NCBI GenBank assembly: GCA_022843405.1
Contig: JALHNQ010000007.1
Location: 1 to 64,000 of the forward strand
Reading direction: 5' to 3'
Source of the DNA: Methylocystis sp.
GTDB lineage: Bacteria; Pseudomonadota; Alphaproteobacteria; Rhizobiales; Beijerinckiaceae
Length of the DNA: 64,000 nucleotides
The position numbers were made by a program, and so were the translations under genes. The notes below the pieces were generated by a model that worked only from the letters and a program-made list of their open reading frames with translations, did no database searches and was not told the origin of the DNA. Below, one piece after another: positions 818-14,600 of the stretch; the stretch's first letter is position 1, and each line of letters begins with the position of its first letter.

Positions 818-2005
818 CTACGCCCGCGTGAGGAAACGCCGCAACGCTAAGAAAGGACCCAGCAACATATATAGCGGCAACCACGTTAATCCTCGGCGTA
901 ACGTCAGGGCGTCGCGGGGGTCGCAAAGGAATCTGACCAGTTCATTCATGGCGAAGGTCATGTCGGCGCCCATCCGGACCTGAAAGCGCAACATTGCGAG
1001 TTCTCGTAGCATCGACTTCGACGTGCGTAGCCCGCCGGGAATCTCGTCCGCGCAGAGCTCCGCGACGACGAACGACATATTCTTGTCGTTACGGCGAGCC
1101 GGCGCCATTGTTGTCGGCCTCACTTGGTTCGCATCGTCGAGGAGAGATTGTGCGAGATCGATGGCGTTGCGAGTAAATGCGTTGCGCTCCAAATGGAGAA
1201 GGGCGTAAACGCCGTCTCTGCCGATTAAATGAAACGCTCGCTCAACGTCGCATAGCCATTTGAGCATCGCAAACGCATGGCCGCCTCCATGACTGCAAAG
1301 GTATCGCGCCGCATCCGCGTCATTCATCCCACGAATGCATCCCGCTGATGTTTCAATGACCAGAGCAGAACGCGAAAGTTCTCCAAAGTCAGCATTCATT
1401 GCGTGAGGGTTTGCCGTGAGGCGATGGTGCACTTCGACGCTATGGCCGTTGCGCACGTCCTCATACTCGAATGCGTGCAGCAAGAAGCCGAGTATGTCGA
1501 TGGACTCCTCGGGAATCTCAAAGCTCGGCGTCTTGCGAAGATAGCCGTCTCGGCGAAGAATTTGATCGGCCGCCAAAAAATTTTCGGGAGCCACGATCAG
1601 GTCGATGTCGGTCGACTGCCTTACCGCCGGATCAGCCGCATAAAGACGATGCGCGGCGGCGACGCCTTTGAGAACAAGACTGTCGATTCCCTCCTCGCAA
1701 AACATCTTTGTAATTCTGACGGTTTCATGAGCCTGAGCGAGAAAGCGGACCTGCCCCAATCGATAATCCTGTTCAAGGCTCGTCATTGCGTTTCGCGGGA
1801 TAGCTCCGGCGTCAAGCGCATGCAGTCGCGAGTAGGACAGCGCCGCCAGGCCGTGGCGCTGCGCATGCCAAACGAAGTCGTCCCAATCAATTCCATCCAT
1901 CGAGACGTCGGATAGGCTCTCGTCGCCGGGTCGGGCGAGGGCGTGGAGAAGCCTCAGTTCATGCGACTCACGCAAGAGAGCGGAAAAACTAGAGATTTGA
2001 GACAT
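818..2005 (-). CDS. nucleotidyltransferase family protein (NTP_transf_5 type) of the lasso cluster
   Basis: About 395 residues. The nucleotidyltransferase signature is visible as LKG near residue 116 followed by STDIDLIV near 135-142, the metal-binding Asp pair of the polymerase-beta-like fold. Proteins of this family (PF14907) sit beside HprK-like kinases in several lasso-peptide clusters; their exact reaction is not well settled. It is the last gene of the minus-strand run, overlapping the end of the kinase gene by a few bases, so it is probably co-translated. ATGs at 2017 and 2005 are both possible starts. I prefer 2005, which gives the shorter overlap. Confidence 0.8.
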   Translation of the reverse strand: MSQISSFSALLRESHELRLLHALARPGDESLSDVSMDGIDWDDFVWHAQRHGLAALSYSRLHALDAGAIPRNAMTSLEQDYRLGQVRFLAQAHETVRITKMFCEEGIDSLVLKGVAAAHRLYAADPAVRQSTDIDLIVAPENFLAADQILRRDGYLRKTPSFEIPEESIDILGFLLHAFEYEDVRNGHSVEVHHRLTANPHAMNADFGELSRSALVIETSAGCIRGMNDADAARYLCSHGGGHAFAMLKWLCDVERAFHLIGRDGVYALLHLERNAFTRNAIDLAQSLLDDANQVRPTTMAPARRNDKNMSFVVAELCADEIPGGLRTSKSMLRELAMLRFQVRMGADMTFAMNELVRFLCDPRDALTLRRGLTWLPLYMLLGPFLALRRFLTRA

Positions 2006-2894
2006 GATCCTCGACACGCGCGATCACGTCGCCCATCGCGGCAAGATCGCGCGGGCGCCGAAGAACGAAAGCCGGGACATGATTGAGCAGATCCGCAGCC
2101 CAAGCGAGAAACTCGCTTTCGCGGCCAAGGGTATTGATGAAGAAGTTCAGCCAAACGTCGCGGCGAAGAAACGCCAAGGCCTCGAAACGATCGAGCCGTA
2201 CTATCTTTGTCGTCTTCGAGTTCGACCATTCGAGAAAGAACAGGCTTGTTAACGGAACAGCGTCTGTTGAAAATAATTGGGCGGCGGGAACTGACCATTT
2301 GTCGTCGACATCCGGCGCCAAATAGGCGGCGCTCAAATCCTGACCTTTCATGACCGCCAATGATCTCAGCCGGAAAATCGGCAGACCCGGTTCGACGACA
2401 TAGCGCCCTGCGCCGAGGCGATTCAACGCAAAGCGATCGTCCGAAAGGATTTTATATTCAGCCTCGCTGAACGCCGCGGCTAGCGTCGATTTACCTCTTC
2501 CAGAAGGTCCCAGAAAAGCGAGGCCCTTGCCATCGAGCGCTAAAGCGCAGCCGTGTAACGGAAAAAATCCGCGCTGGTGCAAGACTACGCCAATGGATGC
2601 GCCAAGGATGAACAGGCAAACCGCCGCAGGGTCGGAATCTACTGCAGGCTCCACGGCGACTCGCTGGCCGCCAGTGATATGAAAGCGAGCAACGCCCGAC
2701 GCATTAAAAATTGCCTCTTCTTGCGCGATTTTGAATCCAACACGCGAGCCTAATGATCTCTGGAGTCGCCTTGGAACGGCGCCCAATTCAATGCTGACCC
2801 AGTCCTGTCTTGCGGTAGCCGCTGGCGCTGCCTCAGGCAAGCCGAGGTCGATAGCCGACTCGATCGATAGTCCGTGAAGTCGATAGCTTCGCAT
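1989..2894 (-). CDS. HPr-kinase-like protein of the lasso cluster
   Basis: The protein has a P-loop (GPSGRGKST) preceded by HGCAL and followed by LSDD, the layout of HprK/P-type kinases. In lasso clusters, homologues phosphorylate the C-terminal Ser of the precursor or peptide (paeninodin-type kinases). The frame is open to 2978, but the ATG at 2894 gives an N-terminus (MRSYRLHGLSIES) typical of the family and avoids overlap with the cyclase gene, leaving a gap of under 40 bp. The candidate substrate is the Ser ending the core region of the two precursors (Ser57), if it becomes C-terminal; that step is inference. Confidence 0.8.
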   Translation of the reverse strand: MRSYRLHGLSIESAIDLGLPEAAPAATARQDWVSIELGAVPRRLQRSLGSRVGFKIAQEEAIFNASGVARFHITGGQRVAVEPAVDSDPAAVCLFILGASIGVVLHQRGFFPLHGCALALDGKGLAFLGPSGRGKSTLAAAFSEAEYKILSDDRFALNRLGAGRYVVEPGLPIFRLRSLAVMKGQDLSAAYLAPDVDDKWSVPAAQLFSTDAVPLTSLFFLEWSNSKTTKIVRLDRFEALAFLRRDVWLNFFINTLGRESEFLAWAADLLNHVPAFVLRRPRDLAAMGDVIARVEDHVSNL

Positions 2895-2932
2895 GTTCCG
2901 AAGGTCGTTCGGGCGTTGCATAGGCTGCGCGC

Positions 2933-4804
2933 CTACGTCCGCGGACACAGCAGGAGGCCGAGCGACAACGGCCGCCAAAGCTTCAGCGACACGACAGAAA
3001 CATCTTCACGCGCATCAGAATCAAGGGCGCGAAACCCCTCTTCGATCTTATTTTGATCGACGACGGAATTCCAAAGTTCATTCTTCCGGAAACGTTCGAA
3101 TTCCAGTCGCATGGTCGTCGCGTGAGGCCGTATCATCTCATTGTAGCGCAAGAACACTTCGCCCTTATCCAGCCGATCTGCGATCTGCTTTGGCGCGAAA
3201 TCCCTCGCTGTTGATCGGATCAGCATCCGGTTGAACCCCGACGAAACTTTGATGTGCGATGGCGTCGACAGACAGCTCTCCACCAAGCTCTTGTCGAACA
3301 GCGGATGACGGTATGAAATCTTGCTGTTCTGGTCGCTGAGGTCATCAAAGAACCATCCGCCCAATTGCGTGGTCAGATGGATCACTGCAATTTCCTCGTC
3401 ACGCACCGAGCGGAACGTTCGCGTATGCGCTTCCCAGCCGCTCTCGATGCATTCTGACTCAAAATCCCCACTTCCCGGAAAGTCGGCGCGCAACGCATGA
3501 TGGCGCGTGTAGTCCTGCGCCATCATGCGGCGCTTAAGTCGAAGAATTGACCAAGGCAGAAAAGGCTTTATGACGCCCTGAACAAGCGTTTGAAGCACAC
3601 GCTCGCCGCTTGACGTGCGCCGTCGAAACTCTCCGAGGACGCGCCCTACCTTTCCATTCGCCAATGATTCCGCCAAATAGCTGTCGGCAAAGCCTGATAT
3701 GAGCAGATCGCCGCCCAAACCGGACAACATTACGTCGAGGTCTTCAGCTTGCGCGGCCTTCTCAATTTCTTCGTCCGAGCCGCCGCTCACTTCAAGCGGC
3801 GGACCTCCCTGAAATGTCGTGCGTCCGATGAGGTCCGCCAACGGATCGCGACTCACATTCACGACGTAGTGGACAGACAAATTCGGGTAATGTCTCGCGA
3901 GCGCATCAATATATTGGCGCTCATCCGTGGCGGGTCCGCTGTATCCCTCCGGCAACGCCACGCTGAACGCGTGCATTTGCCGATCGCGGTTTCCTGCGCA
4001 GACAATCGCCGCGATCGTCGAGGAATCCAATCCGCCCGACACCATGGCGCCGATCACGCCTCGCGCTGGAATGCGTGAGCGAACCGCTTGAACGAGTTGG
4101 TCCTGGAAATTCTCGAGCAATGCTGCGTCGGGAATTCCGCGTGCGATTCGCGTATTTTCTGGACGCCAATATCGTTGCTGCTTGAGCGAAGCTCCGCATC
4201 TCTCGAGAACTGTTCCTGGCCTTACGGCGCGAACCGCCTCGTAAAAGCTGTGATCTTCAAACGCCGCTCCGTTGAGCAAATAGGCGGCGAGTGAGTTCAG
4301 TCGAAAGTTCGTGTTCGCGTTCGGCGTGGCGATCAGCGGCTTGGCTTTGCTGGCGAAGTAGACGCTCGCGCCATCGAGCAGATAGCATAGTGGCCTAACG
4401 CCAAAATGATCTCTGAAAAGACAGAATCGCTTCGATGTCTTGTCGTAGAGCGCTCCTGCAAAATCGCCATTCAAAACGTCCGGAAAAATGCTGGAGTCTT
4501 GTGTGACGAGCTTGCAGACGAGTTCAACGTCCGTGATCTCGGCCAGCGGATGCTGCGACGGCAGCAACGACGCCTCTAGGTCGCGCCGGTTATAGAGGCA
4601 CGCATCCATGAGAAGGTGCAATGATGCTGATCGCGCAAGAACCTCGCGCTCCAACGACGCGCCGGTCCAACCCACGATAAAATGTTCGTCGATCTCAACG
4701 ATTGAGACAACAGCAGCGTCAGTTGACTTTGCGATGGCGTCGACCGCACGACGATTGGCCGCAAGAGCGGGCGTCGGCGAAAACGCGCCAAAAATAAATG
4801 TCAT
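2933..4804 (-). CDS. asparagine-synthetase-like lasso cyclase (C protein)
   Basis: 623 residues. The N-terminal half resembles a class II glutaminase domain but lacks the catalytic Cys2 (it starts MTFIFGAF), as expected when ammonia is not the nucleophile. The C-terminal half has the ATP-pyrophosphatase loop SGGLDSS at about 256-262. In lasso biosynthesis this enzyme adenylates the ring Asp/Glu side chain and closes the macrolactam with the core N-terminus. The ATG at 4804 overlaps the B2 stop as ATGA, which implies translational coupling; the frame runs further upstream but without a better start. An asparagine synthetase role is unlikely given the neighbours. Confidence 0.88.
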   Translation of the reverse strand: MTFIFGAFSPTPALAANRRAVDAIAKSTDAAVVSIVEIDEHFIVGWTGASLEREVLARSASLHLLMDACLYNRRDLEASLLPSQHPLAEITDVELVCKLVTQDSSIFPDVLNGDFAGALYDKTSKRFCLFRDHFGVRPLCYLLDGASVYFASKAKPLIATPNANTNFRLNSLAAYLLNGAAFEDHSFYEAVRAVRPGTVLERCGASLKQQRYWRPENTRIARGIPDAALLENFQDQLVQAVRSRIPARGVIGAMVSGGLDSSTIAAIVCAGNRDRQMHAFSVALPEGYSGPATDERQYIDALARHYPNLSVHYVVNVSRDPLADLIGRTTFQGGPPLEVSGGSDEEIEKAAQAEDLDVMLSGLGGDLLISGFADSYLAESLANGKVGRVLGEFRRRTSSGERVLQTLVQGVIKPFLPWSILRLKRRMMAQDYTRHHALRADFPGSGDFESECIESGWEAHTRTFRSVRDEEIAVIHLTTQLGGWFFDDLSDQNSKISYRHPLFDKSLVESCLSTPSHIKVSSGFNRMLIRSTARDFAPKQIADRLDKGEVFLRYNEMIRPHATTMRLEFERFRKNELWNSVVDQNKIEEGFRALDSDAREDVSVVSLKLWRPLSLGLLLCPRT

Positions 4805-5235
4805 CGGATCGATAAATTGCCGAATTGGGAAAACGCGTTCGGCGCGCCGGGGTCTGTGACATAGATTTCGCCCACGGTCAGCCAAGTATGAGCAAGCATT
4901 TCGCTTGCATCTTCCTGCTTAATCCCAAGGTGAAAGACCGGGTCCAACCCCGCTCTCCGCGCCCATAGAAGCGCGGCGACCGACCGGACCAGACAATCGG
5001 ATCGCCAGGGGACATAATGGCAGGCGACGCCGATGGCCCATGCGATTCCTCGCGCGCGATCGTGAGCGGGCGCCGCTACTGAAGGCTCTTGCTGACCAGC
5101 TAACGCCATCTGAAATAGGTTTTGAATCGGCAAGACCGCTACCAAAATTCTGCCAATCAGAAGATATCCCACTGCCGCAAGCAGCATCGCCTTGCCGTCG
5201 AGATCGAGGCTCAGAAAACGCCAAATTTTATTCAC
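4801..5235 (-). CDS. lasso peptide leader peptidase, B2 protein (transglutaminase-like)
   Basis: 144 residues from a GTG at 5235 that overlaps the B1 stop codon region, with a ggtgga-type ribosome site about 12 bp upstream. This start avoids the 50-bp overlap of the longest frame. A hydrophobic stretch at 18-40 is followed by the catalytic triad of the PF13471 family: Cys81 (SDCLVRS), His116 (AHTWL) and Asp128 (VTDPG). Family members cut the leader from the core after B1 delivers it. The ATGA overlap with the cyclase gene makes B1-B2-C one coupled unit. Confidence 0.88.
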   Translation of the reverse strand: MNKIWRFLSLDLDGKAMLLAAVGYLLIGRILVAVLPIQNLFQMALAGQQEPSVAAPAHDRARGIAWAIGVACHYVPWRSDCLVRSVAALLWARRAGLDPVFHLGIKQEDASEMLAHTWLTVGEIYVTDPGAPNAFSQFGNLSIR

Positions 5236-5506
5236 GGATAATTTCCACCAAGTTCTCGCTAACCAGCGCTTCCACAAATTCCCGGGCGTCGTCGGCGCAT
5301 TCCGCTGGAGTGGTCGCGAATTCCGTCTGCAGCTGGCCGCACAGTTGAGCCAGGTTCGTCGGCTTCTCGAGAAGCGTCCAAATTCGTAAGCCAGTCCCGG
5401 ACAGGCCGTAATAATTCCCGCGTTCGGGATTGAGGAGCGCGATTTCGCCTTCCCCGAGAACAGCTTCCGGAATGTCCTTACGTCGTACGAATCGAATGTC
5501 GGTCAT
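5228..5506 (-). CDS. PqqD-like leader-recognition protein (lasso B1, RRE)
   Basis: 92 residues with the PqqD fold pattern: an N-terminal beta segment (FVRRKDIPEAVLGEGEIALL), an NYYGLSGTGLRIWTLL helix, and a C-terminal helical part ending LVSENLVEIIRE. B1 proteins bind the precursor leader, typically through a YxxP-like motif, and present it to B2. Here the matching leader motif would be WTKP in both precursors. The start lies 15 bp after the proximal precursor gene, so the two are probably co-transcribed. Confidence 0.87.
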   Translation of the reverse strand: MTDIRFVRRKDIPEAVLGEGEIALLNPERGNYYGLSGTGLRIWTLLEKPTNLAQLCGQLQTEFATTPAECADDAREFVEALVSENLVEIIRE

Positions 5507-5521: not shown

Positions 5522-5899
5522 TCAAGTCGGATCAACGTCGATGAGCGAATAGTCGACCCTCAAATAGCCGTCGGCCCCAACCGACACGGCGTCTGGCCGA
5601 GCGCGTGCGATCTCTTGGGCGATGCCGCCACTGCGAACCGGCCCACCCCAGATGTATCGGAAAGAATAAATGCTCAACCCGCTCGGCGCTCGCCCGACGC
5701 AGGCAATGTTCGTTTTGAGGCGCGCATCGCTAGGCATCATCATCATAGCAACGTCGGTGCCCGACACTGACGACCCACGCGTGATATCCTTGATCTTGCG
5801 GATCGTGAGAACAGGTTTGGTCCACTGAGGCTTCTCATCGGCGGCGCCCAAGCTCGCTTGCGCTTTTCCATTTTTCTTATCGGCGGCATCATTGTTCAT
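5522..5899 (-). CDS. lasso-type precursor peptide fused to a truncated Peptidase_S74 domain (A1)
   Basis: 125 residues. Residues 1-41 look like a lasso leader, with W26-TKP, a P-x-L spacing and Thr40 at the conserved -2 position. A core would start at Gly42, with Asp49 as eighth residue able to form an 8-residue ring, then a Met-rich tail (VAMMMM, P56). At Ser57 a Peptidase_S74 signature begins: SDARLKTNI, then IYSFRY, GGIAQE, and DGYLRVDYSL. S74 domains are autocleaving chaperones of phage tail spikes, using a Ser and the Lys five residues on (here Ser57 and Lys62). The domain is short, ending just after VDYSL without the long C-terminal trimer helix. A ggag ribosome site precedes the ATG. 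Leader and S74 assignment are firm; core borders are inferred. Confidence 0.78.
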   Translation of the reverse strand: MNNDAADKKNGKAQASLGAADEKPQWTKPVLTIRKIKDITRGSSVSGTDVAMMMMPSDARLKTNIACVGRAPSGLSIYSFRYIWGGPVRSGGIAQEIARARPDAVSVGADGYLRVDYSLIDVDPT

Positions 5900-5930
5900 G
5901 GCGACGCTCCATCAGCATGGAATGACAACC

Positions 5931-5958
5931 ATACTATATTACCGTCCGCGGACGACAA
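5931..5958 (-). promoter_or_regulatory. putative promoter of precursor A1, with palindrome in the spacer
   Basis: Reading on the minus strand, TTGTCG (5958-5953) and TAGTAT (5936-5931) are 16 bp apart and lie about 30-60 bp before the ATG. The spacer holds the perfect 12-bp palindrome cgtccgcggacg (5943-5954). Both hexamers are conserved in the duplicated upstream region of A2, where the palindrome carries one change. The palindrome could be an operator; no regulator gene is seen nearby. Confidence 0.4.
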
Positions 5959-6019
5959 CCGGTCGTTTAGTTTCTTATGGCGGTCTGCGGTTGCCCGTCT
6001 TAAGCTGTTCAGGCCAACA

Positions 6020-6178
6020 TTGGTGGCGGCGCTGAGTTCAACCTCAAGGGGTCGGCAGAGGCCAGCGACAGGCGAAGCCGACGTGGCGGTCGATTATGTC
6101 ATCGACACGGCCTCTCCCGACGCTACAAGCGCTTCTAGCCCACTTGCCGCGGGCTTCATCGCGAGCGCGAACGGCTCT
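6020..6178 (+). pseudogene. 5' fragment of the methyltransferase gene, left by the tandem duplication
   Basis: The frame encodes a stretch (VDYVIDTASPDATSA, then SPLAAGFIASANG) nearly identical to the N-terminus of the complete methyltransferase. It stops at the duplication joint at about 6190, before the SAM-binding motif, and reads on into antisense precursor sequence. It cannot encode a working enzyme. It marks the direction of the duplication: the intact gene belongs to the right-hand unit. Confidence 0.8.
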
Positions 6179-6192
6179 TGTCCGGCATTCTC

Positions 6193-6570
6193 TCAAGACG
6201 GATCAATGTCGATGAGCGAATAGTCGACCCTCAAATAGCCGTCGGTCCCAACCGACACGGCGTCCGGCCGAACGCGCGCGATCTCTTGGGCGATTCCGCC
6301 ACTACGAACCGGCCCACCCCACAGGTAACGGAAAGAATAAATCCTCAACCCGCTCGGCGCCAGCCCGATGCAGGCGATGTTCGTTTTGAGGCGTGCGTCG
6401 CTGAACATCATCATCATAGTGCCGTCGGTGCCAGACCCTGTCGACGAACGCGTGATGTCCTTGATCCTGCGGATCGTGAGAATAGGTTTGGTCCACTGAG
6501 GCTTCTCATCGACAGCCTTTGAGCGCGCTAGCGCTTTTCCGTTTTTCTTATCGGCATCATCATTGTTCAT
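6193..6570 (-). CDS. lasso-type precursor peptide fused to a truncated Peptidase_S74 domain (A2)
   Basis: 125 residues, with the same layout and numbering as A1: W26-TKP leader motif, Thr40 at -2, Asp49, M52-M55, then Ser57 opening SDARLKTNI. The core differs: it begins Ser42 rather than Gly42 (SSTGSGTD, then GT and the Met run, Phe56). Ser as first residue of a lasso core is less usual than Gly but is known. The frame is open to 6630, but the ATG at 6570 has the ribosome site (gga) and aligns with the A1 start. A1 and A2 differ more in the core tail and linker than in the leader motif or S74 part. Confidence 0.78.
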   Translation of the reverse strand: MNNDDADKKNGKALARSKAVDEKPQWTKPILTIRRIKDITRSSTGSGTDGTMMMMFSDARLKTNIACIGLAPSGLRIYSFRYLWGGPVRSGGIAQEIARVRPDAVSVGTDGYLRVDYSLIDIDPS

Positions 6571-6630: not shown

Positions 6631-6756
6631 CCCGTCGCATTGTTTCTCATGGCGGTCTGCGAATGCCCGTCTTAAGCTGTTCAGGTCAACAAATTGGAGG
6701 CGGCGCTGAATTCAACCTCAAGGGGCCGGCAGACGTCAACGACAGGCGAAGCCGAC

Positions 6757-8298
6757 GTGGAGGTCGATTATGTCATCGACACGGCCTATCCCGACGCTAC
6801 GAGCGCTTATAGTCCACTTGCCGCGAGCTTCATCGCGAGCGCGAACGGCTTTTGTCCGGTATTGCGAGCGGGCGCGCCTTTCACGCTCGTAGATTTCGGG
6901 TGTGGGCAGGGCGGCGAACTCCTGACCATCGCCGCCGCCAATCCAGCCGGTCGGTTCATTGGCGTCGACATTAATCCAGTTCATGTCGCCGCTGGCGCAA
7001 ATCGGGCGGCGATGGCGGGACTACAGAACGTTTCGTTCCTGTGCATGGATTTCGAAGATGAGCTGGTTGATAACCTACCAGACTTCGAAATTGGCGTTAT
7101 CAACGGCGTCTGGAGCTGGGTGCCGGTTTCGAAGCGCGAAGCCCTGCGGAATATCTTGCGTCGCCGGCTCAAGCCGAACGGATTGACCGTCGTCAGCTAT
7201 ATCGCAATGCCGGGCTGGGCGCCCCTGCTTCCGATTCGGGCGATCTTCGAGACGTTGACGCGCGATTCATCTGAGTCCTCCCTCGAAAGGGTCGAGGCGG
7301 CGCTATGCGCTGCGGGCCGGCTGCAGGAACTGGGGGCTGAATATTTCGTCGCCAATCCGGCTGCACAAAAATTTTTCGACGAGCTTCGCGTCTCGGATCG
7401 GCAATATCTTGCCCATGAATTTTTGAACAAGGCGTTTAACCCGTTTTACGTTACGCAGGTCGCGGCGTTTCTCGAACCCGCGGGACTGCGCTTCGCTGGC
7501 AGCCTGCCGGAACGAGAAAACGGCCTGATTCACGGCCTCTGCGACGATCGCATTTCATCTTTTCTCGACAGAGAAGCCGATCCTGTTCAGAGAGAATTCG
7601 TCAAGGATCTCTTCAACAATACAGGAGGCCGTTGCGACATTTACATCAGGAGCGACGCGCCATCGCCACCGATGCGTGCGGATCTTGAGCCATTTTGGTT
7701 CTTGCCCGGACCTTGCGCCGATGTCGCAGCTTCAGGCCTAGCGAGGCATGGGCGAAGCCTTTCGATCGAAGACCCCTTTTACCGCGAATTGTCCTCGCTC
7801 CTGCACCAGTCGAGCGTTCGAATTGCTGACCTCGCCGCCCGAGAGTCGATTGTAAAACTTGCACAAGGCGAACTCGAAAAAAAATTGATACGAGCGGTAA
7901 TTCTAGGCATCGCAGTCGTTGGGCTGGAAAATTCGAACGCGAAGTTCGATGCGCGTAATCGCCAACTGAGCCTGCCGATCTCTTTCAATCGAATCGCGCT
8001 TGTGGAAAATATTTTGGCTGACGGACGTCGATTGCTAGCTGACCCCGTAACAGGCGGTGGGCTTGAATTGACAGCGATGGAGGCGGAACTGCTGATCGCG
8101 CATCTGAACAACAAAGGAGAGGGAATCGAGGCGTCGGTTGACGATCGGCTATGCGAGATCGGCTATCCACTAAGAGCTTTTGGCAAACCCATCGAAGATC
8201 GAGGTTGGCGTTTAGCGCTTATTGCGGCGGCCAATCAAGAATTTGTTTCCAAGAATATCCCCCTCCTCTTACGTCATCAGGTGCTTTCGAACGCCTGA
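6757..8298 (+). CDS. class I SAM-dependent methyltransferase with regulatory domain, lasso cluster
   Basis: About 513 residues from a GTG at 6757 preceded by aggcga; a TTG at 6694 would add 21 residues, and the duplicated copy conserves both regions. The SAM motif is VDFGCGQGGELL, followed by IGVDIN and a PD-x-E-x-G-V-I-N-G-V-W-S-W stretch. The long C-terminal part fits the methyltransferase-regulatory-domain family. The gene is divergent from the precursors and convergent with the ABC exporter (22-bp tail overlap). A role in methylating the peptide is suggested by position only; known lasso methyltransferases act at the C-terminal carboxylate. Confidence 0.75.
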   Translation: MEVDYVIDTAYPDATSAYSPLAASFIASANGFCPVLRAGAPFTLVDFGCGQGGELLTIAAANPAGRFIGVDINPVHVAAGANRAAMAGLQNVSFLCMDFEDELVDNLPDFEIGVINGVWSWVPVSKREALRNILRRRLKPNGLTVVSYIAMPGWAPLLPIRAIFETLTRDSSESSLERVEAALCAAGRLQELGAEYFVANPAAQKFFDELRVSDRQYLAHEFLNKAFNPFYVTQVAAFLEPAGLRFAGSLPERENGLIHGLCDDRISSFLDREADPVQREFVKDLFNNTGGRCDIYIRSDAPSPPMRADLEPFWFLPGPCADVAASGLARHGRSLSIEDPFYRELSSLLHQSSVRIADLAARESIVKLAQGELEKKLIRAVILGIAVVGLENSNAKFDARNRQLSLPISFNRIALVENILADGRRLLADPVTGGGLELTAMEAELLIAHLNNKGEGIEASVDDRLCEIGYPLRAFGKPIEDRGWRLALIAAANQEFVSKNIPLLLRHQVLSNA

Positions 8299-10109
8299 TT
8301 TGGCCAGGGAGCCGCGGTCGATTGAATTTCGGTCAATCTGCCATCGACAAGCTGGACAGATAGATCAACCGCGCGGACCTGTTCGCGGCGATGCGTCGCC
8401 AATATCATCGTGACGCGCCCCCTAAGCGCTTCGATCCCCTCCATCACCGCTTGCGCATTGCTTTCGTCGAGCGAGCTTGTTGGCTCGTCAAGAATCAATA
8501 GTGCGGGCTCGCGAAGCAGTGCGCGCGCTAGTGCGAGCCGCTGCCGCTCACCCCCTGAAAAACGGGCGCCGCGATCGCCGACGATGGTGTCCATCCGTTG
8601 CGGCAAGACATCGACGAATGCGGCGGCTCCTGAGATGGTCAGGGCGTGATGAAGTTCGCTCGCAGTCGCTTCGGGCTTCGCGACAAGCAGATTCGCGCGG
8701 ATGGTGTCATTGAACAGGAACGGTTCTTGCAAGAGATAAGCGCTAGAATTCCGCCATTCCCGCGCCAGATCGTCCGTCAGAGCGCGATCGTCGACCCATA
8801 TGCTTCCTTGAGTTGGCCTCAAGAGGCCAGCCAGCAGGTCAAGCAGCGTGCTTTTTCCGGCGCCCGACGGTCCTGAAAGGACGGTAAGCGTTCCGGGCGG
8901 CAGGCGAAGATTGATGTCAGTGAGCGCGTCGGGGTCGTTTTCGCCATGCTTGAAGCTCACATGCTCAAGACGAACGACCGGGCACGGGTTGAAAGCTCTT
9001 GGCGACCGCCCACGGAGAGGCTCGCGCGCATTGGCGCAAGCGGTTATGAGAGAAAATAAGGTTTGAGCGCCCGGCGACGCATGCAGGAGCTGCTGCATCG
9101 TCTGCTGCAACCCTTGGATCAACGGGAGAAGCCGATAAAAAATTAAAGTAAGCGCGAGGACTTGCGCGACGGGCATGTGAAAAAAGGCGACGCTTAGCCA
9201 TAGGAAGATCGCCACCACTCCTGCGCCGGCAATGTCTTGAAACAGCCGCGCGTTAGCGCTGCTTCGGATATAGGAAAGCCAATTGTCCGTGACCTCGTCA
9301 ATCACCCTTGAAAGGGCGGAAACATGCAGATCTTCAGCGCCATAGCTTTTTGCGATCTTCAGCCCGGCGAGAAATTCAGACGCCTGATGGTGGAAGTTTT
9401 CATAAGCGGACGAGAGCGCTTCTCCAAGACGCAGACTCTCGACCAACCTCGCCCGGACCAGCCAAGCAAGTAGGAGTCCGGTTCCCAATGCGCCAAAGGT
9501 CAGCGTAGGCGCGATCAGGCACGCAGCAATGACATGCGCGACGATCAATATGGCCTTGCTCAGCATGTCGAGCGCATAGTGGATGGCAGAATCGAACCTG
9601 TCACACTCGGCGGTGAGAGCAGAGAGAAGGGTTGCACGCCGCTTCCCGCGCAGAAAAGACCAATTTGCATGGGCGATGGCCGCATAGAGTTCAACTCTGG
9701 CGTCGCGTATGAGATTTAGGCGAAGACCGCTGAGATAAAGATCGCTTTGCCGAATGAGAAACGCGCGCGCCGACGCAAGACCAATGAAAATGGCCAAGAC
9801 GCCTAAGAGGCTCGACTGCAGGCCGAATCTGCTGGCGAGCTGCGGCAGCCATCCCGCGCCCTCTTGCGTAGATCCTGTAGCCGCATCGAGCGACTGCACG
9901 AGTGGAACAACGTAGAGAAGGGCAAGGCCTTCGCTCAATCCGCCAAGCAACATCAGCGTACTTGCAACCAGCATCTGGCAAAGGCTCGCCCGTCCAAGCA
10001 GCGCCTTCCAGAATTGCAGGATCTGGCGCAGCGTATCCGGGATGGAGAGGGAAGAGCGATCGTCGTTCACCAGCTTCGCCCCGATTATTCGAACGCGCCG
10101 TCGACGCAA
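8277..10109 (-). CDS. ABC exporter (fused membrane and ATPase domains), lasso cluster D-type
   Basis: 610 residues. The N-terminal transmembrane half (segments around 45-70, 100-120, 185-220, 295-335) carries no C39 peptidase domain. The C-terminal ATPase has Walker A GPSGAGKST (413-421), signature FSGGERQR (518-525) and Walker B LLILDEPTS (537-545). This is the layout of McjD-type exporters that provide export and self-immunity. It is separated from the precursors by the oppositely oriented methyltransferase, so it needs its own promoter. Confidence 0.85.
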   Translation of the reverse strand: MRRRRVRIIGAKLVNDDRSSLSIPDTLRQILQFWKALLGRASLCQMLVASTLMLLGGLSEGLALLYVVPLVQSLDAATGSTQEGAGWLPQLASRFGLQSSLLGVLAIFIGLASARAFLIRQSDLYLSGLRLNLIRDARVELYAAIAHANWSFLRGKRRATLLSALTAECDRFDSAIHYALDMLSKAILIVAHVIAACLIAPTLTFGALGTGLLLAWLVRARLVESLRLGEALSSAYENFHHQASEFLAGLKIAKSYGAEDLHVSALSRVIDEVTDNWLSYIRSSANARLFQDIAGAGVVAIFLWLSVAFFHMPVAQVLALTLIFYRLLPLIQGLQQTMQQLLHASPGAQTLFSLITACANAREPLRGRSPRAFNPCPVVRLEHVSFKHGENDPDALTDINLRLPPGTLTVLSGPSGAGKSTLLDLLAGLLRPTQGSIWVDDRALTDDLAREWRNSSAYLLQEPFLFNDTIRANLLVAKPEATASELHHALTISGAAAFVDVLPQRMDTIVGDRGARFSGGERQRLALARALLREPALLILDEPTSSLDESNAQAVMEGIEALRGRVTMILATHRREQVRAVDLSVQLVDGRLTEIQSTAAPWPNQAFEST

Positions 10110-11662: not shown

Positions 11663-14600
11663 ATGTGGCTTGCTGAACGCATATTGCGCTGGACTTCCCG
11701 GCTGCACGTCGAAGATGAAAAGCTGCGCCAGCGCAACGATGAATTCCTGCAGGCGAAGCGCGTCGCCGGGGAGGGGATTGCCGCTTTATCTGATGAACTT
11801 GCGGAGCCCGCGATCGGACGACTTTCGGAAGGCGTTGCTGACGACGAAACGCGAGAGTTTGGCTGCGGCAACGAATCGTTCAACCAAGAGTTGACCTTCC
11901 TTCGGCGAGCGTTGAAAGAGCGCGATAGCGAAGCTCTCAATGCTCTCGAAGATCTCGCGCGTATCGAGCAGGAGCTGGCGACAGCACATTCGCAATTGGA
12001 AAAGTACGCGTCGCTGTTCAGCCAGCATCGCGACAGGTTGCAGCGGTTTGAGCGACAGCTGGGGATTGTTAACGCGAAGCACGCGGTCGATCAGCAATTG
12101 GTCAAAGCCGCGCGGGCAGTGCGGAACGTTTTGTCCCAGTCCCCCCTCGGCCTTGTAATGCACGGCGGGCGTCTGCGCGCCGCAATCGCCGCTTATGCCC
12201 CCAGCAGGCCGCTTGATCGTTCCGAACGCAAGGAGATCGAGCGCAGCTTTCTTTTCGACCGAGAGTGGTATCTGGATCAGAACCCCGATGTCGCCAGGCA
12301 CGGAATAGATCCTGTGGCGCACTACGTGCGTAACGGGTTCATGGAGGATCGCGATCCCCATCCGCTGTTCAACGCCGCTTGGTACCGCGCGATTTATGGC
12401 CGCGAACTAAATGGCGTTTCGCCGCTCATTCATTTCTTGCGCAACGGCGGCAGTCAGAAACGCGCCTCGCATCCATTATTCGACTCAGCATTCTATCTGC
12501 GCCAGAACAAGGATGTCGCCGGGCGCAATCTCGACCCGTTAAAGCATTTTATAGACGTTGGCGAAGTTGAGAGGCGCGACCCGCATCCGCTGATTTGGAT
12601 GGACCGGCTGGCTGTTCAACCTAGCCTCGGAGGCGTCGAGCGGCCATTTAAAGCATATATCAGCGATTCCCGCTTTTTCCTCGCCAGCGTTCATCCGCTA
12701 TTCGACGGAGAATTTTATCTCCATGAGAATAGGGACGTATGCAAGCACGGCATATGTCCGCTGCTGCATTATTGCGCGGTCGGCTGGCGCGAAGGGCGAC
12801 AACCGCACCGAGCCTTTGCCGGCGATTGGTATCTCGAACAAAATCCCGACGTTCTATCAGCGCAGATTAATCCATTGATCCACTTCGTTATGTCGGGGGC
12901 GTGGGAGGATCGCTCACCACATCCCCTCTTCGACACGAGGTTCTATGTGCGTCAGAACCTCGATGCGCGCACCGGAAAGCAAGACGTGCTGACGCATTAT
13001 GTCACCGTCGGAGGTGAGGAACGGCGCGAAACTACGGAGAAAATCAAAGTCGACGACATGAAGGAGATCGTGCCGAGGGCTTACTGGCATCGGTTTGATC
13101 CGATCTCCGCTTTCACCTTTTTCGGCGAAACGCGTATCTCGGCTCCGGCGCTGGTTGATATTGGCGGCGACCAGTTCGATAGCTCTTGGCCGCCATCTCC
13201 CGAGGTCGCTTATTGGCTGCCGCAGCAGCTACGCGATTACATTATTGAACGCTACGGCGAAGATGAAATCCCATTCTACCTCTATTTGATGTCGGTCATC
13301 GACCGCTACGGAGATCGGCCGGATGCTTTTGCAGAATCAAAGGAACTGGCTGCGCTCAGACATCGGCTACGGGGCTGCTGCTCTCGAGGCAGGCGAGTCA
13401 AACAGCCAGATGTCTCGGTAATCGTGCCCGTGTACAACAATCTGGCGTTTACGCTCACGAGCGCCCTGAGTTTATTGGAAAGCAAGTCGCGCTACGCCTA
13501 CGAAGTCATCATTGCAGACGATCGTTCCAGTGATCTGACGCAAGAAGTATTTTCGTCGGTGGGCGCGCCGATCGTCTATGTAAGGCAAGAGAAAAATCTC
13601 GGCTTCCTAGGCAATTGCAACGCTGCCGCACAGCACGCGAACGGCCGTTATGTCGTGATGCTCAACAATGACACCATCACGCTGCCTGGCTGGCTCGATG
13701 AATTGATAGCGCCTATGGAGAAAGACGCTCGCATCGGTCTAACCGGCTCGAAGCTGCTCAACGCGGACGGCACATTGCAGGAGGCTGGAGGCATCTTCTG
13801 GAATGACGGGTCGGCGTGGAATTTTGGCCGCAATAGCGATCCCCGTCTGCCTGAGTTCAACTATCTCAAGGACATCGATTATATTTCTGGCGCTTCGATC
13901 GCGTTGCCGACAAAATTATGGAAGGAGTTAGGGGGCTTCGATCCTATTTATTCTCCGGCGTATTGCGAAGACTCGGATATCGCCTTTCGCGTGCGCGACA
14001 GAGGGTTGCGAACGATCTATGCGCCCCATTCGGCGCTCGTGCATCACGAGGGCAAGAGCCACGGCCGCGACACGAGCAGCGGCGTTAAGGCGTATCAGAT
14101 CTCGAACCAGAAAAAGTTGCTCGATCGTTGGCGAAGCGTTCTGGAGAAGGAACATTTCGCCAATGGCGAAAATGTCTTTTTGGCGCGCGATAGATCGCGC
14201 AATCGCCCACACATCCTCATGGTGGACCATTACATTCCGCAATGGGACCGTGATGCAGGGTCACGGACTATCTATCATTTCCTGCGCATGTTCGTTGAGG
14301 CCGGTTTTCACGTGAGCTTCTGGCCGGATAATCTCAACGAGGATCGCGAATATTGCGAGATGCTCCAACAAGCTGGAGTCGAGGTGCTCTATTCTGCCGC
14401 CTATGTCGATCGTTTCGACGAGTTCATGGCGGCAAACGGATCTTATTTCGATTACGCGCTCGTCAACCGTCCGCATGTTGCGCCCAAATATTACGATTCG
14501 ATCCGCGCTCATTCGCACTGCGTGATCCTCTACTACGGTCACGACATCCACTATAAAAGGCTCGAGTCGGAACTCCTGACCAGCGAGGATCGCCGGCTCT

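Follow-up and report, generated by a model that had tools for sequence, protein, structure and literature searches.

Lasso-type precursors that end in a compact Peptidase_S74 domain in Methylocystis and other Alphaproteobacteria

How a chain of 15 residues is threaded before its ring is closed is an old question in lasso biosynthesis. A locus of Methylocystis sp. bears on this question. The window, that is, the whole stretch of 64,000 nucleotides that was analyzed (contig JALHNQ010000007.1, positions 1 to 64,000), encodes two precursors, A1 and A2, that depart from the rule that the core of a lasso precursor is its C-terminus, as 69 residues extend beyond residue 56. What, then, is a further domain doing at the end that would have to be threaded? 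The features of the two precursors are as follows.

5522..5899, minus strand: precursor A1 (P0001), 125 aa; leader 1-41, core 42-56 (GSSVSGTDVAMMMMP), S74 domain 57-125
5525..5731, minus strand: compact S74 domain of A1, with the residues of the Ser57 + Lys62 dyad
6193..6570, minus strand: precursor A2 (P0002), 125 aa; leader 1-41, core 42-56 (SSTGSGTDGTMMMMF), S74 domain 57-125
6196..6402, minus strand: compact S74 domain of A2 (PF13884)

Both reading frames are present on the minus strand with the lasso features that the original prediction had ascribed to them. The leaders contain W26, P29 and L31 (aromatic-xxPxL) and Thr40 at position -2, and an eight-residue ring candidate ends at Asp49 and begins at residue 42, which is Gly in A1 and Ser in A2. 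The layout of A1 is ...PQWTKPVLTIRKIKDITR / GSSVSGTDVAMMMMP / SDARLKTNI...VDYSLIDVDPT, and a GGAG is located 8-11 bases upstream of its ATG. A1 and A2 are 82% identical over 125 aa and arose by the tandem duplication of ~671 bases, the 5' part of a methyltransferase gene included, with repeats spaced 671-674. A leftover copy of the methyltransferase 5' region and the stretch upstream of it, 89-92% identical, lies between the two precursors at window positions 5921-6189.

The proposed Peptidase_S74 domain starting at Ser57 was recovered by a narrow margin. In the Pfam scan, PF13884 covers residues 57-105 of both proteins (model positions 1-57 of 58) with 23.4 bits for A1 and 24.9 bits for A2, against a cut-off of 22, while no NCBIfam model matched either precursor at E<=1. 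The S74 part stops shortly after VDY, as had been noticed. Only eight residues remain beyond that motif, so that the C-terminal trimer coiled coil is absent, and the AlphaFold2 model of A1 contains no long helix.

The neighboring genes, with B1, B2 and C adjacent to the precursors, make up a lasso cluster that is ordinary in its gene content; it is the precursor architecture that lasso precursors normally lack.

5228..5506, minus strand: B1, PqqD-like RiPP recognition element (PF05402, 64.1 bits)
4801..5277, minus strand: B2, transglutaminase-like leader peptidase, true start uncertain (PF13471, 73.7 bits; NF033537 lasso_biosyn_B2, 67.9 bits, cut-off 33)
2933..4885, minus strand: C, asparagine-synthetase-like lasso cyclase (PF00733 Asn_synthase, 105.8 bits); true start probably the internal ATG of MTFIFGAF
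1989..2978, minus strand: K, HprK-related kinase (TIGR04355, 32.8 bits, and TIGR04352, 30.0 bits, both below cut-off; P-loop GPSGRGKSTL)
818..2017, minus strand: N, nucleotidyltransferase NTP_transf_5 (PF14907, 135.8 bits)
6694..8298, plus strand: divergent methyltransferase (PF10119, 52.2 bits; Methyltransf_25)
8277..10109, minus strand: ABC transporter, possible exporter (PF00005, PF00664)

The best NCBIfam model for C is NF033535 lass_lactam_cya, with 205.6 bits under its cut-off of 525. The ABC transporter is not a constant neighbor of such precursors, as no match to it occurs in L062, L063, L080, L081 and L082, and the one in L191 (genome G1363) is partial (36% over 198 aa).

The same architecture recurs in other alphaproteobacterial genomes. 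Profiles of the precursors were searched in overlapping whole-genome samples of 199, 397, 397, 385, 249 and 178 genomes. Matches spanning leader and S74 were obtained in the window genome (G000) and G088 among 199 genomes of the family, in G000 and G355 among 397 genomes of the order, in G000, G088 and G738 among 397 genomes of the family, in G000, G917 and G1095 among 385 genomes of the class, in G917, G1095 and G1363 among 249 genomes of the family of G1095, and in G000, G917 and G1095 among 178 genomes of the phylum. A lasso leader, an Asp at core position 8 and an S74 domain are thus combined in five further genomes (G738, G088, G917, G1095 and G1363), which brings the total to three genera besides that of the window and to two families of Alphaproteobacteria: G738 belongs to the same genus as the window, G088, an uncultured Methylocystaceae MAG (CALMZV010000019.1), to another genus of its family, and G1095 and G1363 to another family. 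An eighth fused protein, in G355, keeps the leader, S74, B1 and B2 and has no ring acid, so that Asp is found at position 8 in 7/8 fused proteins. The P, L and T columns of the leader are invariant in the seven fused proteins that were aligned; the leader of G1363 was judged by eye.

Matches without S74, consisting of leader and core, were found in G867 (class search), in G917, G1015, G1261 and G1271 (search of the G1095 family), and in G917 and G1015 (phylum search). Six further matches of the order search start at model positions 12-40 (G330, G443, G446, G533 twice, and G548) in frames of 240-1412 aa, and the lasso leader was absent from the two that were inspected (G330 and one of G533); four order-search matches, together with G1453 (phylum search, position 27, 625-aa frame), are left out of the tally of fusions. 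The other profile matches start at or near the S74 domain. Lasso B2 occurs in 10 of 179 family genomes, two of which (G000 and G088) also have a fused precursor, and a scan of genome contigs with the pattern SDxRLK gave three confirmed loci, one of them a fusion.

The surroundings of these genes are mostly those of a lasso cluster, with B1, B2 and C complete beside the fused precursor in the window, G738, G088 and G1363. In G738, B1, B2, C, the kinase and the nucleotidyltransferase are 89-96% identical to those of the window, and the precursor is 82% identical. The cluster of G088 runs from a nucleotidyltransferase through C, an S74-less precursor, the fused precursor directly beside it, a PRMT-like methyltransferase and the kinase to B1 and B2. 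That of G1095 comprises C, the fused precursor, a PRMT-like methyltransferase, the kinase, B1 and the nucleotidyltransferase, the sole B2-family match of the genome being located elsewhere, and that of G1363 comprises B2, C, the fused precursor, the kinase, B1 and the nucleotidyltransferase, with no match to either methyltransferase type. The PRMT-like methyltransferases that directly follow the fused precursors in L063:9570-11127 (G088) and L082:9928-11461 (G1095) are 42.7% identical, and the methyltransferase of the window is of another family. A cyclase gene thus lies in the same cluster in five of the six genomes with Asp-8 fusions (window, G738, G088, G1095 and G1363). In the sixth, G917, the fused precursor stands alone among sugar genes, and ~200 kb away lies an ordinary lasso cluster with the cyclase and a precursor that lacks S74. 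This orphan (L081:9782-10171, with L192) has a leader similar to that of the distant cluster, and processing in trans is possible.

In G355, B1, B2, the kinase and the nucleotidyltransferase adjoin the leader-S74 protein, the core of which, AVAAGSGAAPA, has no acid, and the 20 kb read there revealed no cyclase. Ring acid and cyclase are missing together, in this one case. The fused protein (L062:9857-10252) and B1 + B2 (at about 11700-12379) may represent leader trimming without ring closure.

PF13884 exceeds its cut-off of 22 in all eight fused proteins, with 26.2 bits in G088, 34.7 in G355, 29.7 in G917, 33.8 in G1095, 26.3 in G738 and 27.4 in G1363, in addition to A1 and A2. Together with the recurrence in other genera, mostly beside lasso genes, these scores make a chance association very unlikely; a chance reading frame or frame artefact is ruled out by the same scores and by the purifying selection described below. 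The arrangement probably represents a genuine, hitherto undescribed mode of lasso peptide maturation. To our knowledge, no characterized lasso peptide has an S74 domain, and we know of no dedicated lasso threading aid or self-cutting follower. Among open-licence PMC papers, none was found on a lasso peptide with an S74, endosialidase, intramolecular chaperone or tail fiber domain, and a search for RiPPs with peptidase S74 returned only an Enterococcus proteomics paper.

Where the S74 domain begins is informative. Core length was counted from two residues after the Thr at -2 to the residue preceding the S74 Ser. By this count, the seven fused cores measure 15, 15, 17, 16, 16, 23 and 25 residues, each with Asp at position 8 (in G1095 also at 5), and the cores of nine S74-less precursors that came from these searches have 15, 17, 17, 21, 24, 24, 24, 24 and 24 residues, with Asp at 8 in five and at 9 in four. 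A tenth, that of G867, has a core of about 13-14 residues and lacks Thr at -2. The similarity in length of the fused cores (15-25 residues) and those of the S74-less relatives (~13-24) implies that S74 was joined at the normal end of the product, and agrees with the original prediction that the domain begins where a lasso core would end. The residue before the S74 Ser varies (P, F, S, G, M, G and M; A in G355), and a cut before this Ser would yield a core ending in Ser in one of the seven (G738). The short S74-less, lasso-like precursor of G867 (L079:1414-1608; YTSPCIQKLGRIATIVEASSGSGTDGGIYAS) has a ring motif, SGSGTD, that resembles that of the window precursors.

A comparison of A1, A2 and the G738 copy reveals that, among near relatives, S74 is the most conserved part of the precursor and under purifying selection, and the core is the most variable. 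S74 displays a dN of 0.026-0.057 and a dN/dS of 0.08-0.28, and the leader a dN of 0.11-0.15. In the core, dN is 0.27-0.38, dS 0.38-0.91 and dN/dS 0.30-0.71; all of these ratios rest on few sites (in the core, S about 10 and N about 35). The core is variable, but as its dS is elevated and its ratio stays under 1, diversifying selection is not established.

The putative dyad is retained throughout the S74 domains examined. Ser57 and Lys62, for which a catalytic role had been proposed, are kept in all eight fused copies, and among the domains of the genome loci, which include these eight, the Ser is found in 77/77 and the Lys in 78/78, although the HMM used for counting still contains viral rows and rows chosen by an S-D (SDxRxK-like) pattern. 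By contrast, the Arg and Leu between them occur in only 62/78 and 69/78. The count was made on genome loci since the 80 viral loci (the best 80 of 152 relatives, from two patterns) are biased for SDxRLKxN. The invariance agrees with a kept catalytic dyad, as judged from sequence, and a structural role of the two residues is possible.

The lack of a trimer helix, in turn, is genuine and not special to the precursors: fewer than 40 residues follow the domain in 77 of 78 distinct S74 domains, the eight lasso copies included, and almost none has room for such a helix. The description of the domain as that of a phage tail spike is not supported as worded. In a PHROG scan of six fused proteins, the best family was phrog_6121 (virion structural protein), followed by phrog_4287 (DNA ejection protein); S74 occupies the final part of both profiles, and the tail-fibre families scored lower; tail spikes were outside the tree described next.

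In a tree of 80 domains, from which four rows without the compact end (L031, L182, L183 and L185) were left out, the lasso S74 domains fall in three places. Those of the window and G738 stand beside rhizobial cellular S74, those of G088, G917, G1095 and G1363 lie together among phage and Gallionellaceae domains, and that of G355 is among other cellular ones. A single origin of all eight lasso S74 parts was rejected (p-AU 0.003, 64 columns). For the seven without G355, a subset chosen after the tree had been seen, a single origin was not rejected (p-AU 0.25, 64 columns), and repeated fusion is therefore not claimed for them. Several other proteins with a compact S74 were encountered. The 319-residue frame of L008 (G023) has T/S-x-F-G-like repeats just before the domain and resembles a repeated-unit precursor; L006, L007, L009, L034-L036 and L038, of the same order, have poly-Gly linkers ending in W before it; and two neighboring Gallionellaceae proteins, secreted-looking by eye (L065:9539-11454 and L066), each end in one.

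AlphaFold2 models of full-length A1 have a mean pLDDT of 88-90 over residues 61-120, with leader and core at low confidence, and the A1 S74 folded alone reaches a pLDDT of 97. A Foldseek search of predicted viral structures returned 19 matches at E<=0.001, seventeen of which superimpose at 0.6-2.1 Å; the remaining two give 2.5 and 8.4 Å. Among the structures listed, the five models named as neck appendages and a connector of the long tail fibre cover the same stretch but superimpose only at 13.1-13.9 Å. Judged by these rmsd values between predicted models, the A1 S74 may be a closed, unswapped monomer, unlike members of the trimeric class, which would be opened or swapped. The close matches include models labelled 'tail protein' (1.1 Å), 'tail fibre protein' (2.4 Å) and 'endosialidase chaperone' (1.4 Å), so that names do not cleanly separate the compact from the trimeric class. 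No match in the PDB was found by Foldseek at E<=0.001. At the sequence level, profile A4 detected PDB entries 6f45 (E 2.8e-5), 7dc3 (MYRF; 0.0013), 8jov (0.0096) and 3gud (0.031), only the first below 0.001, and a PDB sequence search with three sequences gave a best E of 0.22.

Starting from the observed domain architecture, gene neighborhood, recurrence, conservation of the dyad residues and purifying selection on S74, we propose a maturation by self-excision. B1 would bind the W/YxxP leader, and B2 would cut after residue 41. With S74 still attached, C would then close the ring around the tail by linking the freed N-terminus to Asp49, and S74 would cut before its own Ser57 by means of the Ser57-Lys62 dyad, releasing a free lasso of ~15 residues. 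Given the compact form without a trimer helix, the cut would have to occur either within a monomer or within a trimer stabilised through contacts of another kind. Lasso topology, timing and self-cleavage are what we infer here, and we place at about an even chance the reading of A1 and A2 as lasso precursors with a folded C-terminal S74 follower that excises itself.

Several lines of evidence speak for self-excision. The same architecture is found in lasso clusters of independent genomes (G738, G088, G1095 and G1363), S74 starts at the usual core end with Asp at 8 in seven proteins, the Ser and Lys are invariant while the residues between them vary, and the low dN and dN/dS of S74 stand against the high dN of the core. 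The domain is predicted to fold alone and is close to viral predicted structures. MYRF, as described in PMC8326128, is cut between Pro586 and Ser587 and requires Ser587 + Lys592, the equivalents of the Ser and Lys here, and A1 has the same Pro-Ser pair at Pro56-Ser57. Astexin-1 carrying GFP at the end of its tail has been produced in lasso form (PMC8498205); lasso enzymes thus accept proteins on the tail, which makes ring closure with S74 attached plausible.

Other observations count against self-excision. Cutting of MYRF depends on trimerisation through its C-terminal coiled coil (PMC8326128), which is absent here, a structural role could account for the conserved Ser and Lys, and the residue preceding the Ser is not conserved. 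In the known lasso clusters described in PMC8498205, the HprK-like kinase modifies a C-terminal Ser, and the phosphate that it adds is in turn the target of the nucleotidyltransferase; a single one of the seven predicted cores fits. The core dN/dS is also below 1, and Foldseek gave no PDB match at its threshold. We know of no cleavage by any compact S74. The retention of leader, S74, B1 and B2 in G355, where ring acid and nearby cyclase are missing, suits another function of S74.

In the main rival reading, S74 would stay on, and the product would be a natural lasso-protein conjugate, perhaps anchored, displayed or multimerised via S74. The compact domain is common as the last domain elsewhere, in secreted-looking Gallionellaceae proteins, Gly-rich rhizobial proteins and phage proteins, and the absence of the helix needed for MYRF cutting, the composition of G355 and the tolerance of lasso tails for fused proteins all fit a fusion that is retained. 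This, however, leaves the start of S74 at the usual core end and the invariant Ser + Lys unexplained, and in the window an exporter of the McjD type would presumably need to pass a folded domain. We regard a retained S74 as possible, though on balance improbable.

An unlikely alternative is that S74 acts as a foldase only, holding the tail during threading, with an inactive dyad and removal by a host protease later. S74/ICA domains are described as intramolecular chaperones of the sequence that precedes them (PMC3742443, PMC8326128), and the purifying selection on S74 would be expected of such a role. The invariance of both Ser and Lys does not favor it, nor does the Pfam scan of the nine window genes, in which no protease besides B2 was recognized. 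It is very unlikely that the product is not a lasso at all, B1 and B2 merely trimming the leader to give an S74 protein with a new N-terminus and ring closure being absent or different; G355, with B1, B2, kinase and nucleotidyltransferase and neither a core Asp/Glu nor a cyclase in the 20 kb read, is what such a product might look like, but the Asp at 8 in the seven other fused proteins and the cyclase of their six genomes, in the same cluster in five and ~200 kb away in G917, argue against it. A decaying or accidental fusion with a functionless S74, to which the near-cut-off HMM scores of the window could point, is highly improbable in view of the dN/dS of S74 and the recurrence in several genera.

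Returning to self-excision, a bolder form of it, which we consider doubtful, is that a self-excising monomeric S74 serves as a lasso folding sensor that would grip the tail, stay during ring closure and cut only after threading and, unlike known S74 domains, without trimerising. Natural lasso precursors in which a folded domain follows the core provide a handle on the threading question, as the domain can be removed, mutated at one residue or swapped with the threaded yield as readout. They also allow a test of whether compact S74 can cut without trimerising, which, if true, would widen the family beyond phage fibres and MYRF. Mining rules that expect short, core-terminated precursors would probably miss such genes.

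The locus of A1 and A2 shares features both with known lasso clusters and with S74 proteins. The leaders of paeninodin, pseudomycoidin and the putative lasso of S. yanoikuyae have an aromatic-xxP motif and Thr at -2, like the window precursors. As presented in PMC8498205, the clusters of these three have split B1 and B2, C, an HprK-type kinase and a nucleotidyltransferase, like the window; their precursors end with the core, whereas those of the window go on for 69 residues as S74. The paeninodin-type kinase targets a C-terminal Ser, with which most of the fused predicted cores do not end.

The ICA domains of phage endosialidase, neck appendage, long tail fibres and MYRF resemble the window S74 in the SDxRLK start, the Ser + Lys and PF13884, but have a C-terminal coiled coil that is lacking in the window S74, a predicted closed monomer. 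The compact S74 domains of cellular proteins and of phage virion and ejection proteins (phrog_6121, phrog_4287) have the same length and the same end after VDY, and the window S74 groups with the cellular ones on the tree; at the N-terminus, those proteins have long linkers or virion parts, whereas the window proteins have a lasso leader and core. The engineered fusions of astexin-1 and pandonodin to GFP or a leucine zipper that are reported in PMC8498205 likewise combine a lasso with a C-terminal protein. Those fusions are man-made and stable, whereas that of the window is natural and its domain comes from a self-cutting family.
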